A DNA stretch of 64,000 nucleotides, taken from Streptococcaceae bacterium ESL0729. GTDB taxonomy: Bacteria > Bacillota > Bacilli > Lactobacillales > Streptococcaceae. Position numbers and translations under genes: made by a program. Positions 9,327 to 59,977 of the stretch are shown here, piece after piece. The number at the start of each line of letters is the position of its first letter. Within the stretch, counting starts at the first letter, position 1. The stretch lies in assembly GCA_029391995.1 (NCBI GenBank), contig CP113924.1, positions 713,001 to 777,000 of the forward strand, written 5' to 3'. The notes under the pieces were generated by a model. The model searched no databases. It was not told the origin of the DNA and worked only from the letters and a program-made list of their open reading frames with translations.

Positions 9327-9530
9327 ATGAGAAAAAATGAGATTGCGGATATCCAACTTATTAAGTGGCTTTTGGAAAATCAAACAGCTTATAGGATAGG
9401 TAAGGCTACTGGAATAGGAGATACAACTATTAGCCGCTGGAATACTGGGAAAACAGAACTCAAAAAGATGTCTTTTGACAATGCCATCAAGTTAACCGAT
9501 TATGCAAGAGAGCTGAAGGAAGAACTTTAG
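9327..9530 (+). CDS. Small XRE-like helix-turn-helix protein (paralogue 1)
   Basis: 67 residues from ATG 9327, with AAAGGA 6 bases upstream (a TTG two codons earlier abuts the site). The whole protein is one HTH: AYRIGKATGIGDTTISRWNTGK is the helix-turn-helix, followed by an amphipathic helix. It matches a second 67-residue protein at 50443-50646 along its full length (IAD-LIxWxLExQT, KTxLxKMxxxNAxKLTxYAxxLK). It is the last gene of the left phage island and has its own promoter and terminator. DNA target unknown. Confidence 0.8.
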   Translation: MRKNEIADIQLIKWLLENQTAYRIGKATGIGDTTISRWNTGKTELKKMSFDNAIKLTDYARELKEEL

Positions 9531-13302: not shown

Positions 13303-13317
13303 AACAAAGGTTTAATA

Positions 13318-13442
13318 ACAACCGTACCAAAGACAGTAGGGGGAGCAATCCGTAATTCCTACCGAGGACGAAGATTATCGATGAAATAAATGATATTTTT
13401 TGTACTCTCTATGTCTTGGGCAAGAGGGTTTTATTTTGCCCA
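13318..13442 (+). promoter_or_regulatory. Ribosomal protein L10 leader
   Basis: The segment ACCAAAGACAGTAGG at 13327-13341, then TTCCTACCGAGGACG (about 13356-13370) and the inverted repeat TGGGCAA (13417-13423) / TTGCCCA (13436-13442) reproduce the Firmicute L10 leader, where free L10(L12)4 binds and represses its own operon. Confidence 0.88.
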
Positions 13443-13467
13443 CAGAAATAATAATGGAGGTAAAAAA

Positions 13468-16803: not shown

Positions 16804-17874
16804 ATGAAACGTGAACGTCTGCTTGAAAATATTGAAGATTTGAAAAAGATCATGCCCACCTATGTCCTCGAATACTACCAATCAAAATTAACAGTTCCCT
16901 ATAGCCTGACCACCTTATATGAATATCTCAAGGAATATAATCGATTTTTTACCTGGATGATTGAATCTGGTGTCTCTAAGGCACTTAAAATCTCAGATAT
17001 TCCCCTTGATGAGCTGGAACATCTGGCTAAAAAGGACCTAGAGGCCTATATTAACTATCTAAGGGAACGTCCTAGACTTAATACCCACTCAACCCAGTAC
17101 GGGGTCTCTCAGACGACCATTAATCGTACCTTGACCTCTTTGTCCTCTCTTTTTAATTACCTGACTGAGGAGGTTGAGGATGAGTTTGGTGAGCCCTACT
17201 TCCACCGTAATGTCATGAAGAAGGTTGCTACCAAGAAAAAAAGGGAAACTTTGGCTGCAAGGGCTGCAAACATTAAAAACAAGCTCTTTTTGGGTGATGA
17301 AAGCCAAGAATTTTTGGATTTTATAGCTGATACTTATGAGGAAGGCTTAAGTCCCAGGGCTCGGTCATCCTTTAGAAAAAATATGGAGCGAGATTTGGCC
17401 ATTATTGCCCTCATGCTGGCTTCTGGAATCAGGCTATCTGAAGCCGTTAATATGGATATTCGGGATATTAATCTAAATATTATGACCGCTGAAATAACTA
17501 GAAAGGGAGGAAAACGTGATGCTGTAGCTATTGCTCCTTTTGCAGGCCCCTACTTGGAAGAATATCTAACCATTAGGGAAAATCGCTACAAGCCTGAAAA
17601 AAGGAATACGGCTTTTTTCCTAACGACTTACAAGGGAGTTGCTAATAGAATGGATGCTTCTTCTATTGAAAAAATGGTAGCCAAATACTCTCAGGCCTTT
17701 AAGGTTCGAATTACCCCCCATAAACTCCGCCATACGCTAGCAACTAGACTCTATGCTGAGACCAACTCCCAGGTACTTGTTAGCCATCAACTGGGTCATT
17801 CTAGCACCCAAGTAACTGACCTTTATACCCACATTATCGATGAGGAGCAAAAAAATGCCCTGGATAAATTGTAA
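16804..17874 (+). CDS. xerS: Tyrosine recombinase XerS
   Basis: The single-protein Xer recombinase of streptococci and lactococci that resolves chromosome dimers at difSL. 356 residues, exactly the usual XerS length. The catalytic set is complete: R210 in GIRLSE, Lys in ITRKGGKR (about 233-237), H306-x-x-R309 in HKLRH, H332 and nucleophile Y341 in DLYTHI. N-terminal SAM-like core-binding domain about 15-150. It faces the convergent trmFO gene across a shared terminator. Confidence 0.96.
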
Positions 17875-25131: not shown

Positions 25132-25332
25132 CTATTTGATTACTTCAATTGATTTGATTTCTGATTCGTCAAATCCAATGTATTTATGTTTATCTGTTTC
25201 AATGGTTATTTCATCATACAATTCTTTTTCTGTATCTTCTTTCGGGGTATACCCATTACAGTACCCTTGTAACACCTGATTATCAGTAAAGGTAACCCTG
25301 ATATGTTTACCTAAGCATTCTATAAGTTTCAC
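25132..25332 (-). CDS. LSM/Sm-like small protein 1, candidate immunity
   Basis: 66 residues with a single small beta-barrel pattern (MKLIECLGKHIRVTFTDNQ, LQGYCNGYTP, ITIETD, ESEIKSIEVIK) as in phage-encoded LSM-domain proteins. It overlaps the end of the Ntox50-type toxin gene by 4 bases and is followed by a terminator. A second copy lies at 26525-26734. Immunity is inferred from position and repetition. Confidence 0.65.
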   Translation of the reverse strand: MKLIECLGKHIRVTFTDNQVLQGYCNGYTPKEDTEKELYDEITIETDKHKYIGFDESEIKSIEVIK

Positions 25333-26471
25333 TCTGGCCTCCTTAAATATGGGACAATATGCGTTCTTTTCTTCGAATGATGAATTTTAAAAGAATTGGT
25401 TTTTGCGGAGCCGTTAAGACTCACTGCTATACCATAAAAATCTTCAACCGTGATAATCTCTGTATTCTTGCGCCGTCCATTTTTATCTAATTCCATGGAA
25501 CCAGTACCTGCATACTTATCAAACAAAGCCTGAACATCGACGTCATCATTAAAATAACTTCCGCCAGGTTTTACCGTTGATTTCATGTGAGGTGCCTGTT
25601 TCTCAGGATTTATAGTATCCCCATAAATCCCTTCTTGAATCCTCTTGCGGACAAAAACATTATCTCTAAGTCTACTATATGCCTCACTGTCATTATACCT
25701 AATATTTCGGTATTCCTCCAATGTTTTGGGTGCTGATTTACCTAAAATATTCTTGACTTCTCGGTACTTCGTACGGTCATGCTCAAGATCGCTATAATAT
25801 TGAGTTTTATTCTTTTCCTTGACATCGAAGTTCTTATAATACTTCTCCCTCGCATAGTCACGGTGCAGGAAGCTGTTATCTCTAACAATCCCCCTTAGTT
25901 TCGCCTGGAATAGCTTAACTTTATTGCCATATTTGCTTACTAATTCATCATCACCTAGTTCGCGAGCCAAATTTAACTTACCTTTATAATCTCTTACTGT
26001 ACGCTCTAGGGCTCGTTGTTTGGCTTGAACATTCGCATTCTTAATGGCGTCTTCTTCTGATATGTTCTTGATGTCGTCGCCTTGGTCAGATAGTTCATTC
26101 ACACCCACAATAAAAGGGGTCATGATGTGACCACAGTTAATACCACGTCAGCCGTCAGGGGTCCCATAACCGTAATCATTCAAAGATAAAACCTTGACAC
26201 CTTCAATCGTCCTAGCCTCGCCAGTCGTTACGATTTTACCCTGTAATGGTGCACACATTGGGCGTGCTGTTGCTTTCTTAGAGTAGTAATAGGTATCTAT
26301 CCCCAACTCTTCAGCTGGTCTCATCCGCATTTCATTGTAAACACGGTAGGTCGTTGACTTAATGATGGTACGAGCATACACATCAGCCTTCCAGCGTTTG
26401 CCTGCCTTATCAGTAAAGCCGTAAAAGCCTTTGTCAAACCAACGCATGATAGTATGATATCGTTTTGTGCT
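25329..26471 (-). pseudogene. Phage minor capsid protein 2 with Ntox50-type toxin domain, interrupted by TGA
   Basis: Two frames in register, separated by one TGA at 26148-26150 (GTPDG, stop, RGINCGH). Upstream part: GFTDKAGKRWKADVYARTIIKSTTY...CAPLQGKIV; downstream: ITPFIVGVNE-like block, FLHRDYAREK, then a C-terminal domain with VDVQALFDKYAGTG and KIHHSKKRTHIVP, the signature of polymorphic toxin type 50 (Ntox50, a BECR-fold nuclease group). The N-terminus is also missing: the homologous sequence begins just after a terminator at 26484. The toxin domain itself looks intact and could be made only from an internal start such as ATG 26121-26123. Confidence 0.75.
25691..25850 (-). repeat. 160-bp dispersed inverted repeat, right copy
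   Basis: Reverse complement of 8412-8571; one mismatch over the 120 bases at the low-coordinate end and about seven in the remaining 40. Lies inside the minor capsid pseudogene. Confidence 0.9.
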
Positions 26472-26524: not shown

Positions 26525-26734
26525 CTATTTGATTACTTCGATTGAATTGATTTCTGATTCTCCAATTGTTAGTTCGGTGAACTTTTTCGAATATGGATAA
26601 TCGATATATATTGTAACCATATCTTCATCTCCAACATCTTCTTCATCTATGTAATCTACTACAGTTCCAGTAAATTCAAATCCATCAGTTAAAGTCAGCT
26701 TAACCCTACCACCTAAAAAAGTCCACAATTTCAT
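26525..26734 (-). CDS. LSM/Sm-like small protein 2
   Basis: 69 residues (MKLWTFLGGRVKLTLTDG, FTGTVVDYID, ESEINSIEVIK), paralogous to the protein at 25132-25332; the last ten residues are almost the same. AAGGA lies 9 bases before the ATG. Its own toxin partner is absent: upstream sequence is non-coding. It is probably an orphan immunity gene left after loss of a cassette. Confidence 0.65.
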   Translation of the reverse strand: MKLWTFLGGRVKLTLTDGFEFTGTVVDYIDEEDVGDEDMVTIYIDYPYSKKFTELTIGESEINSIEVIK

Positions 26735-27140
26735 TTTGTGCTATCCTTTCTTCTCTTAAGAAGAATACCCTAAGCTATCAAGCTTCTTATTATCCTAGTA
26801 TCCCAACAAGCTTGCTAATTTTAATAGTATAGAAATAGATAATACTATTATCAATACTATGAGTAGTAAATTTATTTTTTTCATTTTTTCCATAACTATT
26901 TAATGAAAAAGTGATAAAATAACAGCAGGTGTCGAGGCCTTTAGCCCACATCTTACTTACTGAACAATTTTAGAAGAAGGTCGACTACTTTATCAAGTAT
27001 CTCTAGTACGAGCAATATTATAGTTAACCTAAGAGCTAGCTCCTTTCTCTTCTTTGGTTGTTCTTTTTTATTCTATCTTTTTTTCCTGCCTTCCTCCTTT
27101 CTTCATGAGATATAAATATTTACTAACCAAACAAACTAAC
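26735..27140. other. Intergenic stretch with possible peptide genes
   Basis: No ordinary gene. On the - strand it holds two short hydrophobic frames (26795-26893 and 26953-27072); on the + strand TGATAAAAT near 26910 could be an extended -10 box for an RNA running over the second frame. It marks the outer edge of the right phage island. Confidence 0.4.
26795..26893 (-). CDS. Possible 32-aa hydrophobic peptide
   Basis: ATG 26893 opens MEKMKKINLLLIVLIIVLSI and on to LLGY, one membrane helix with a basic N-terminus, as in type I toxins or small phage membrane peptides. There is no good ribosome site, so it may not be expressed. Confidence 0.3.
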   Translation of the reverse strand: MEKMKKINLLLIVLIIVLSISILLKLASLLGY

Positions 27141-49734: not shown

Positions 49735-49923
49735 TCAAGAATCTTTTTGAATATTCTCCTCGGCAAGCCTTTCGTCTATAAGTTTCTTAAGCTCAAGTAG
49801 GTCTTCCTGAGTCGCCTTATTTTTAATGAAACTGCGTGACCTTGAACGCTCATTTAAATAGCGAGTTCGCTCCTTATTCTTTTCCTGCCAACGTTTATTG
49901 GCTTCGGTCTGTGATGTTGCCAT
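49735..49923 (-). CDS. Small charged protein of an unassigned locus
   Basis: 62 residues from ATG 49923, with GGAGG 10 bases upstream inside the preceding gene. Sequence ATSQTEANKRWQEKNKERTR then RSFIKNKATQEDLLELKKLIDERL; highly charged, helical. Similar short proteins occur on streptococcal mobile elements and prophages as far as I recall, without known function. Its start overlaps the stop of the 47-aa membrane protein (TAATG), so the two are co-translated. Confidence 0.65.
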   Translation of the reverse strand: MATSQTEANKRWQEKNKERTRYLNERSRSRSFIKNKATQEDLLELKKLIDERLAEENIQKDS

Positions 49924-50066
49924 TAGTTGAAGTACCTCCATAATATGATTAGGATAGCAATTATCACTAACCCTATCAAAAAATCGATTTTTTCTTTTCT
50001 GGTTGTCTTTCTTATTATAAAAGTAGATTCAACTTTTCCGATTCTCTTTTTAAATTTTTTTGCCAT
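49923..50066 (-). CDS. 47-aa membrane protein
   Basis: ATG 50066 opens MAKKFKKRIGKVESTFIIRK..., a very basic N-terminus, followed by one hydrophobic helix (IDFLIGLVIIAILIILWRYF) at the C-terminus. Coupled to the 62-aa gene by a stop-start overlap. No clear ribosome site of its own. Function unknown; size and layout resemble small membrane toxins or regulators. Confidence 0.55.
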   Translation of the reverse strand: MAKKFKKRIGKVESTFIIRKTTRKEKIDFLIGLVIIAILIILWRYFN

Positions 50067-50093
50067 TGTATTTTTTATAGTCTAGTGTATAAT
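50066..50093 (+). promoter_or_regulatory. Promoter of putative RNA A
   Basis: TTGTAT, 16 bases, TATAAT. Confidence 0.6.
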
Positions 50094-50099
50094 TATATA

Positions 50100-50209
50100 A
50101 AATGTAGAAGGGGATTAACCCCCCCGCTACTAAAATTTTATTTTCCATTCAAACGAGATAATGAAAAGTTGCACCTTTATCGTAATCTTATGTTTGAATG
50201 GTTTTTTAT
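50100..50209 (+). ncRNA. Putative structured small RNA A
   Basis: About 110 nt from the promoter above. 5' hairpin GTAG..GGGG-ATTAA-CCCC..CTAC (about 50104-50130), then a long terminator stem CCATTCAAAC (50145-50154) / GTTTGAATGG (50192-50201) followed by TTTTTTATT. The apical part may pair further (GATAA/TTATC). No ribosome site with a sensible frame. No family recognised. Confidence 0.6.
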
Positions 50210-50272
50210 TACCTTTATTCACGCGACTATTTCCTTTGTTTTTATTTAGGACCAATTCCTTAACTGTTTTTT

Positions 50273-50301
50273 CTTACATCTTTATCTACACATGGTATAA
50301 T
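50273..50301 (+). promoter_or_regulatory. Promoter of putative RNA B
   Basis: CTTACA, 17 bases, TATAAT with extended TGG. Confidence 0.65.
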
Positions 50302-50307
50302 GAACGA

Positions 50308-50437
50308 AATAGTAAGAAGAGGCTGAGTCTCTTTGCTTACTTGTCTAAAAGTTTAGCAATCAATTGGTTTAATCGTAATCATATTAGTACAGCGATTACG
50401 ATTAAACCTTTTGTTTCAATGCTAAACTTTTTTTGTT
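50308..50437 (+). ncRNA. Putative structured small RNA B
   Basis: About 130 nt. Hairpin 1: AGTAAG-AAGAG ... CTCTT-CTTACT (50311-50341). Hairpin 2 is nested: an outer 12-bp perfect stem AAAAGTTTAGCA (50347-50358) / TGCTAAACTTTT (50420-50431) enclosing a 15-bp perfect stem GGTTTAATCGTAATC (50366-50380) / GATTACGATTAAACC (50394-50408) with a 13-nt loop. It ends in TTTTTTTG. Convergent with the HTH gene, whose stop lies at 50443. No family recognised. Confidence 0.7.
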
Positions 50438-50442
50438 TTTTC

Positions 50443-50646
50443 TTAAACTTGCTCATCCTTCAATTTTTTTGCGTAATTGGTCAACTTGACGGCATTCGCA
50501 AGTGTCATCTTCTCAAGCAAGGTTTTCCCTTTTTTCCAGTCACTAATAGTAGATTGGGCGATACCTGTCCCCTTAAAAATCTTATAGCCTGTTTGGGTTT
50601 CCAGTACCCACTCTATTAGGTCTAAATCTGCTATCTTTTGGCTCAT
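50443..50646 (-). CDS. Small XRE-like helix-turn-helix protein (paralogue 2)
   Basis: 67 residues from ATG 50646 (GGAGG 6 bases upstream; an ATG four codons earlier lies at the site itself). HTH: GYKIFKGTGIAQSTISDWKKGK. Same length and about half identical to the HTH protein at 9327-9530. It has its own TGCTATAAT promoter (50686-50694) and its transcript would run antisense into RNA B. Likely regulator of the two RNAs or of itself, by inference. Confidence 0.8.
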   Translation of the reverse strand: MSQKIADLDLIEWVLETQTGYKIFKGTGIAQSTISDWKKGKTLLEKMTLANAVKLTNYAKKLKDEQV

Positions 50647-50685
50647 ATTGTCCTCCATTCCTATCCTACAGTTTAGTCATACTTC

Positions 50686-59809: not shown

Positions 59810-59845
59810 CTTGCAAAAAAATAAAGTGATATTAAATTTTTCCTT

Positions 59846-59957
59846 GTCTCCTCTTCATCCTGACTTTAACAGTTGGTACTGGAATTTTACCAGTTCGGCC
59901 GAAAATTTCGGTTCATGGACTTTACCACCAGTGGGGAAACGACCCCCGCCCTGAAGA
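59846..59957 (-). promoter_or_regulatory. FMN riboswitch (RFN element)
   Basis: On the - strand the conserved blocks CTTCAGGGCGGGG, CCCCACTGGTGGT, AGTCCATGAACC, TGGTAAAATTCCAGTACC and AAAGTCAGGATGAAGAG occur in RFN order. FMN binding represses ribU. Confidence 0.92.
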
Positions 59958-59959
59958 CA

Positions 59960-59977
59960 TGTCTAAACATTTAGACA
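59960..59977. repeat. Perfect palindrome at the ribU transcription start
   Basis: TGTCTAAA-CA-TTTAGACA (8+2+8) lies between the -10 box and the aptamer, about +1 to +18 of the transcript. Confidence 0.75.

Follow-up and report, generated by a model that had tools for sequence, protein, structure and literature searches.

The stretch at 50308-50437 on the plus strand of the window (the whole 64,000-nt segment of the genome of Streptococcaceae bacterium ESL0729 that was analyzed) is likely, with a probability that we put at roughly 0.8, to specify a cis-encoded, type I antisense RNA antitoxin that originates from a phage-derived module built much like yonT/yoyJ/SR6. The predicted RNA, denoted RNA B, would be about 130 nt long, with the start inferred from a -10 box and the end from a U-run. 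The first-pass annotation of this DNA, which had called the region a dedicated structured RNA, missed its probable function: the sequence makes it very probable that RNA B lies antisense to an ORF for a small peptide. In the mechanism that we envisage, RNA B would be transcribed and would pair with the peptide mRNA; the duplex would then be cut or would block translation, as with SR6 and the yonT mRNA, and the peptide would be a membrane toxin that helps to keep the element.

RNA B and the ORF on the opposite strand

The predicted structure of RNA B consists of a 5' hairpin (50311-50341), which is also found in the consensus of seven relatives, and a nested hairpin (50347-50431), in which a perfect 12-bp outer stem (50347-50358/50420-50431) encloses a perfect 15-bp inner stem (50366-50380/50394-50408) with a 13-nt loop. 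RNA folding thus recovered both the nested stems and the upstream hairpin that the first-pass annotation had described. The folding energy of 50308-50437 is -45.2 kcal/mol, compared with -20.3 kcal/mol (SD 3.3) for 200 dinucleotide shuffles (z = -7.58; 0/200 as good). Perfect inverted repeats of at least 13 bp with loops of at most 40 nt number five in the window versus none in six simulated first-order Markov windows; the other four have loops of 3-6 nt and look terminator-like by eye. The U-rich tail (50428-50441; T7, G, T6) shares its first four T with the outer stem and is antisense to lysine-rich codons near the start of the toxin-like ORF. Because this T-run lies 3' of the stems on the plus strand, RNA B is taken to be read rightwards. 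The promoter-like site named in the first-pass annotation (CTTACA, 17 nt, TATAAT with TG) does sit upstream, at 50273-50301, with the -10 box at 50296-50301; it is weak evidence taken alone because the surrounding 1.2-kb region contains seven such sites against 3.8 (SD 2.3) in shuffles.

The DNA of RNA B is present as a single copy in its own 1.45-Mb genome. Among the matches listed for 97 other genomes, with at most the best eight candidates per genome scored, only 19-36 bases matched; four of these short matches were inspected, and by eye they fall within what resembles a transketolase-type coding region. A search of plasmid and phage records gave no match at E 1e-5. No Rfam family covers RNA B or the neighboring RNA A (see below) at gathering score, and at a loose threshold the only models to hit RNA B were two of microRNA hairpins, both scoring well under their cut-offs.

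On the minus strand, RNA B faces an unannotated toxin-like ORF (50337-50456) with a lysine-rich start and a hydrophobic end. Its ATG (50456-50454) lies within the 3' end of a small HTH-type gene, with an overlap of 14 nt, and 25 codons are followed by an in-frame TGA (50381-50379; codon 26 of 39) and a further 13 codons to the TAA at 50339-50337. RNA B is a predicted antisense RNA gene over a small opposite-strand ORF, as expected of a type I toxin-antitoxin system. A peptide profile of 12 relatives, from which the RNA B peptide was excluded, gave 15.1 bits for the read-through ORF and 12.6 bits for the 25-aa form, compared with 11.2 bits for the best of 2000 shuffles. Genome-wide searches with the peptide profiles A2 and A3 (one reported to E 10) listed only a second copy near 27 kb and not this ORF, so the peptide link of the ORF rests on the score of the 12-relative profile. 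The 25-aa peptide had no Pfam match, Hol_Tox (PF16935) included; the peptides opposite RNA B and RNA A had no NCBIfam match, and the Fst model NF033608 did not match the RNA B peptide.

By eye, no well-placed ribosome site or promoter lies directly upstream of this ORF. The in-frame TGA and the failure of the genome-wide profile search to find the ORF suggest that the toxin gene copy opposite RNA B is probably disarmed. The TGA falls in the loop of the inner stem and hence leaves the fold of RNA B unharmed. RNA B is thus probably either an antitoxin RNA left over after the loss of its toxin, and may then be an orphan antitoxin, or the guard of a shortened 25-aa peptide.

Antisense signals and covariation in related modules

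Upstream of phrog_2277 or HTH-type genes, loci from phages and genomes have ORFs that are equipped with ribosome sites and encode peptides of similar length, lysine/arginine-rich and then hydrophobic. The layout of these modules is peptide 1, a hairpin, often a second membrane peptide, and then a phrog_2277 or small HTH-like gene, and it was found in loci of Floricoccus, Enterococcus, Weissella, and streptococcal-family genomes and of Listeria-type phages. The A3 profile matched 23 of the 335 genomes of the family at E 0.01; a search of named phage records for the streptococcal toxin peptide gave no match. We scored 29 relatives that were chosen for likeness, not at random, and are not fully independent (L143 and L148 have the same peptide). 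The choice fell on ten phage or genome rows because their peptides start rich in lysine/arginine, on L036 and L040 because their peptides are of the RNA A type, and on L035 and G002 because of their likeness. Among 21 profile-search matches, L177, L186, L187, L188, and L190 were excluded because they lacked a start codon accompanied by a ribosome site or because the frame was overly long or dissimilar, and L181 is the copy of the window itself; the A3 matches L189, L192, L194, and L195 were left out, and L167 and L168 duplicate L086 and G002.

In all 29 chosen relatives, the strand opposite the peptide ORF has a U-run located +16 to +41 relative to the ORF start, U-runs being partly forced by lysine codons. 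The hairpin that ends at the U-run reaches back to 23 nt or less from the ORF end in 28/29; in the exception, L144, the hairpin is short and stops 60 nt from the ORF end. The best -10-like hexamer within 60 nt is an exact TATAAT in 15 relatives and agrees in five of six letters in 13 and in four of six in one; agreement in 4-5 letters is expected by chance, an exact TATAAT is not. A 5' hairpin was seen by eye in folds of the relatives and was left uncounted.

As a control for coding constraint, we compared the native fold with those of sequences in which the protein was fixed and synonymous codons were drawn at random. The mean z over the 29 relatives was -2.9, with 21/29 at -2 or below; RNA B reached -5.61 and RNA A -3.11 (0/300 as good for each). 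This run replaced, after the result had been seen, an earlier one with a poor U-run choice (mean z -1.76; 12/29 at -2 or below; RNA B -4.38). Given that the 29 relatives were selected for likeness, all non-redundant ORF1 loci were counted as well (85 upstream regions, 56 non-redundant, 44 with an ORF1 by rule). An antisense terminator ends at +5 to +44 of ORF1 in 19/44 of these unselected loci versus 1/44 for the sense strand. The antisense strand shows a further peak, of 16, at +85 to +124, its other 40-nt bins holding 0 to 5; on the sense strand, terminators peak upstream of ORF1 (13, at -115 to -76).

Alignment was possible for seven streptococcal-family copies, which have 36 consensus pairs in common; these make up a 5' hairpin plus two helices, one nested in the other, as in RNA B. 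Both sides have changed in 12/36 pairs, and 22 cells hold double changes, numbers that 0/500 shuffles attained in either case. Pairing is retained in 89.7% of cells compared with 83.2% in shuffles, and 0/500 shuffles reached either this figure or the covariation score; slid-alignment controls yielded 0-4 double-change pairs. The 24 pair types observed are not unusual (21.0 in shuffles; 49/500 reach 24). The covariation search that the first-pass annotation proposed as a check thus came out positive for the family, with compensatory changes across it, and not for RNA B itself, for which no alignable orthologue was found.

Two covariance models, neither of which contains sequence from the window, place RNA B in the antisense-RNA family. 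With the first model, R1 (seven rows), the two best matches in the window were RNA A (28.5 bits, E 0.003) and RNA B (27.3 bits, E 0.0053), the next having E 0.64; in the whole genome, RNA B was the sole match listed (E 0.12). Of 22 sources outside the training set, R1 matched the predicted RNA in 10 and missed it in 12 at E 0.05. The second model, R2, has 22 rows, one of which is the orthologue of RNA A in the sister species G002 and three of which are off predicted sites. R2 gave RNA B 42.8 bits (E 1.1e-5) in the window, and in the genome, where the best 150 of 1030 candidates were scored, RNA B was the best match listed (E 2.5e-4; next 0.21; RNA A was not among the matches listed). E-values are rough, as a terminator-like hairpin at 17865 receives E 0.014 with R2. 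All four genomes of the genus contain an R2-family match at E 0.1, G003 only at 0.024. In the fitted alignment, A7, 33/36 pairs show double changes; A7 was fitted to the model and so leans toward structure, and three of its rows lie off predicted sites (L143 2464-2551, L191 895-1023, and L183 78-205). The L191 and L183 segments are also R1 matches away from the starting modules and are possibly second copies. The compensatory changes in relatives with the same nested layout, which had been located through the opposite-strand peptide, together with the matches of their models to RNA B, support the proposal of a dedicated structured RNA.

Neighborhood of RNA B and a second module near 27 kb

The HTH-type gene next to RNA B (50443-50658, minus strand) encodes 71 aa and matches phrog_1529, a family of unknown function (E 1.6e-18); Pfam HTH_3 is below cut-off, and no relative was found among viral contigs. 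A paralogue with 57% identity is located at 9327-9530 of the window, with no such module noticed around it; the gene just downstream resembles serC.

RNA A, the second predicted antisense RNA of the same family, maps to 50088-50214 on the plus strand; R2, the training set of which includes its G002 orthologue, gave it 59.1 bits (E 8.4e-9). On the minus strand, RNA A faces a toxin-like ORF of 30 codons (50130-50222) that has only a GTG start and by eye resembles the L036 and L040 peptides; the G002 counterpart has an internal GTG only. This ORF is followed on the same strand by a second membrane-type peptide of 47 aa (49923-50066; no Pfam family above cut-off). It overlaps the beginning of a phrog_2277 gene of unknown function (49735-49923; E 2.3e-24), which comes third in the module. 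The module of RNA B has no second peptide before the ORF of RNA A. An initial treatment of RNA A and RNA B as independent RNAs was dropped once the opposite-strand ORFs were found. A near-identical stretch is shared by RNA A (50176-50191, TTTATCGTAATCTTAT) and RNA B (50368-50384, TTTAATCGTAATCATAT); the 3' arm of the inner stem of RNA B could therefore pair with RNA A, making cross-talk possible.

The module in this genome is a remnant array that adjoins copZ. Between the same neighbors, G002 has three tandem modules with three such RNAs and keeps RNA A at 95% identity. In G001, a genome of the same genus, the module is by eye indistinguishable from the one in Floricoccus penangensis (NZ_MKIQ01000027.1) and has an identical position in its contig; the genus is probably Floricoccus in GTDB terms.

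A second module of like kind is present at 26525-27091. It comprises a predicted antisense RNA (26915-27091, plus strand; R2 E 0.17) and, on the minus strand, a second membrane peptide (26795-26893) and a phrog_1865 gene (26525-26734). The toxin-like ORF of this copy is the best window match of the 12-relative peptide profile (25.6 bits) and is broken, with no start codon in place and an early stop; the synonymous-codon fold z is -0.93, which is no excess of structure. Because the module lies beside a minor head protein gene (25329-26123, phrog_581), it is probably a prophage remnant.

Known systems and alternative explanations

In layout, the modules resemble yonT/yoyJ/SR6 of the Bacillus subtilis prophage SPbeta, where, as described in parts of PMC5848175, a toxin, a second small toxic peptide, and the products of additional genes are encoded by one polycistronic mRNA, and an antisense RNA of 100 nt overlaps the toxin gene in its 3' part as well as the beginning of the second toxin gene in the same operon. 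The same passages report that the yonT and yoyJ peptides are both toxins and that SR6 promotes decay of the yonT toxin mRNA by RNase III (PMC5848175). The likeness is one of layout, with differences: RNA B covers nearly the whole toxin ORF, and whereas SR6 also overlaps the 5' end of yoyJ, the antisense -10 box in L061 is upstream of the start of the second peptide. A shared terminator together with direct repeats is characteristic of the par locus. A small toxic peptide and a cis antisense RNA are likewise combined in Fst/par of plasmid pAD1 and in its streptococcal relatives, according to PMC7472228 and PMC3543317; the RNA B peptide differs from Fst in lacking a match to the Fst model. The txpA/ratA type and Hol_Tox with rli28 are represented by L068 (Enterococcus sp. 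PF1-24), in which a Pfam Hol_Tox peptide (E 2.1e-8) occupies the place of ORF1 in a phrog_2277 module; unlike it, the 25-aa peptide of RNA B has no such family match. At 2192-2351 of L068, an Rfam rli28 match on the toxin strand spans the upstream region together with most of the Hol_Tox ORF, and an overlap of rli28 with a toxin gene on Listeria plasmids has already been suggested in a passage of PMC9484302.

An Rfam scan of 40 loci showed that five with a Listeria-type peptide (L117, L122, L132, L134, and L141) carry the Listeria sRNA rli48 (RF01479; 167-177 bits). These loci are taken to be from Listeria on account of the rli48 matches and of near peptide matches in 14 named Listeria phage records. 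In all five, rli48 is antisense to ORF1, upstream of phrog_2277, with the 3' end 1 nt beyond the start codon and the 5' end 45-47 nt beyond the ORF, and so has the same place and anatomy as RNA B with respect to its ORF. The connection is one of place and anatomy, not sequence: RF01479 had no match at gathering score anywhere in the window, RNA B included, and R2 listed 0/5 of the Listeria-type loci at E 0.05. ORF1 bears no annotated feature in nine of the 14 phage records and one in three, the remaining two being without annotation. The sRNAs rli98 and rli48 are antisense to each other according to a passage of a review (PMC4179725), and the passages on rli48 in two other papers assign it no toxin-antitoxin role. 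We suggest that rli48/rli98 may be a type I toxin-antitoxin pair.

Three other explanations of RNA B were weighed against a type I antitoxin. It is unlikely, in our estimate, that the antisense RNA regulates a non-toxin peptide (a holin-like, superinfection, or signaling membrane peptide of a phage) in a module that acts as a lysogeny switch with its small third gene. Several third genes do resemble small DNA-binding proteins by eye (profile scans covered those of the window), and in the record of phage LP-101, the module is located between integrase and endolysin. The size, charge, and hydrophobic stretch of the peptide, with an antisense RNA over the ORF, nevertheless fit type I toxins, as do the Hol_Tox peptide at the same place in L068 and the similar arrangement of yonT/yoyJ, both products of which are reported as toxic in the part of PMC5848175 cited above.

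We consider it less probable still that the hairpin is a terminator only, which ends transcription from the convergent HTH-type gene or a spurious promoter and has no target. The hairpin does lie 11 nt past the stop codon of the HTH gene, with a U-rich tail at its end, and promoter-like sites are common in the region; however, this tail is on the plus strand, facing away from the HTH gene, and the minus strand has a 4-T tail only. Moreover, a terminator would need neither the 15-bp inner stem nor the 5' hairpin, and the entire unit, -10 box included, fits the covariance models of antisense RNAs. The remaining explanation, that the long inverted repeat is a DNA element, was raised in the first-pass annotation as a protein site or single-strand origin and could be extended to a mobile-repeat (MITE) copy. 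It appears highly improbable: the letters of the stems change among relatives while the pairing persists, accompanied by a -10-like box and a U-run, and the repeat is single in the genome, with the plasmid and phage records giving no match at the threshold stated above.

The type I kind is already known, but the RNA and peptide families seem to be unnamed, considering the lack of matches of RNA A and RNA B to Rfam at gathering score, of the RNA B peptide to Pfam, and of both peptides to NCBIfam. In the literature searched, which included few subscription papers, we found no description of the module as a toxin-antitoxin family. More speculatively, these modules (toxin, second membrane peptide, phrog_2277 or small DNA-binding protein, and covarying antisense RNA) could belong to an unnamed Firmicutes superfamily of phage-borne type I modules that would also explain rli48/rli98; we regard this as possible, if doubtful. 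Under such a scheme, the toxins here would have decayed and the antitoxin RNAs would have been kept, perhaps as anti-addiction immunity against phages or plasmids with live copies. If RNA B is read as a type I antitoxin, a puzzling hairpin becomes a gene that can be put to the test, namely an antisense RNA whose opposite-strand target can be named, and a function is offered for Listeria rli48. The covariance model could find further antitoxins of this type, and arrays with broken toxins and sound antitoxin RNAs provide a way into the anti-addiction idea. Elsewhere in the window, Rfam matches correspond to an FMN riboswitch (59842-59962, minus strand) and a ribosomal protein L10 leader (13309-13443, plus strand), both ordinary.
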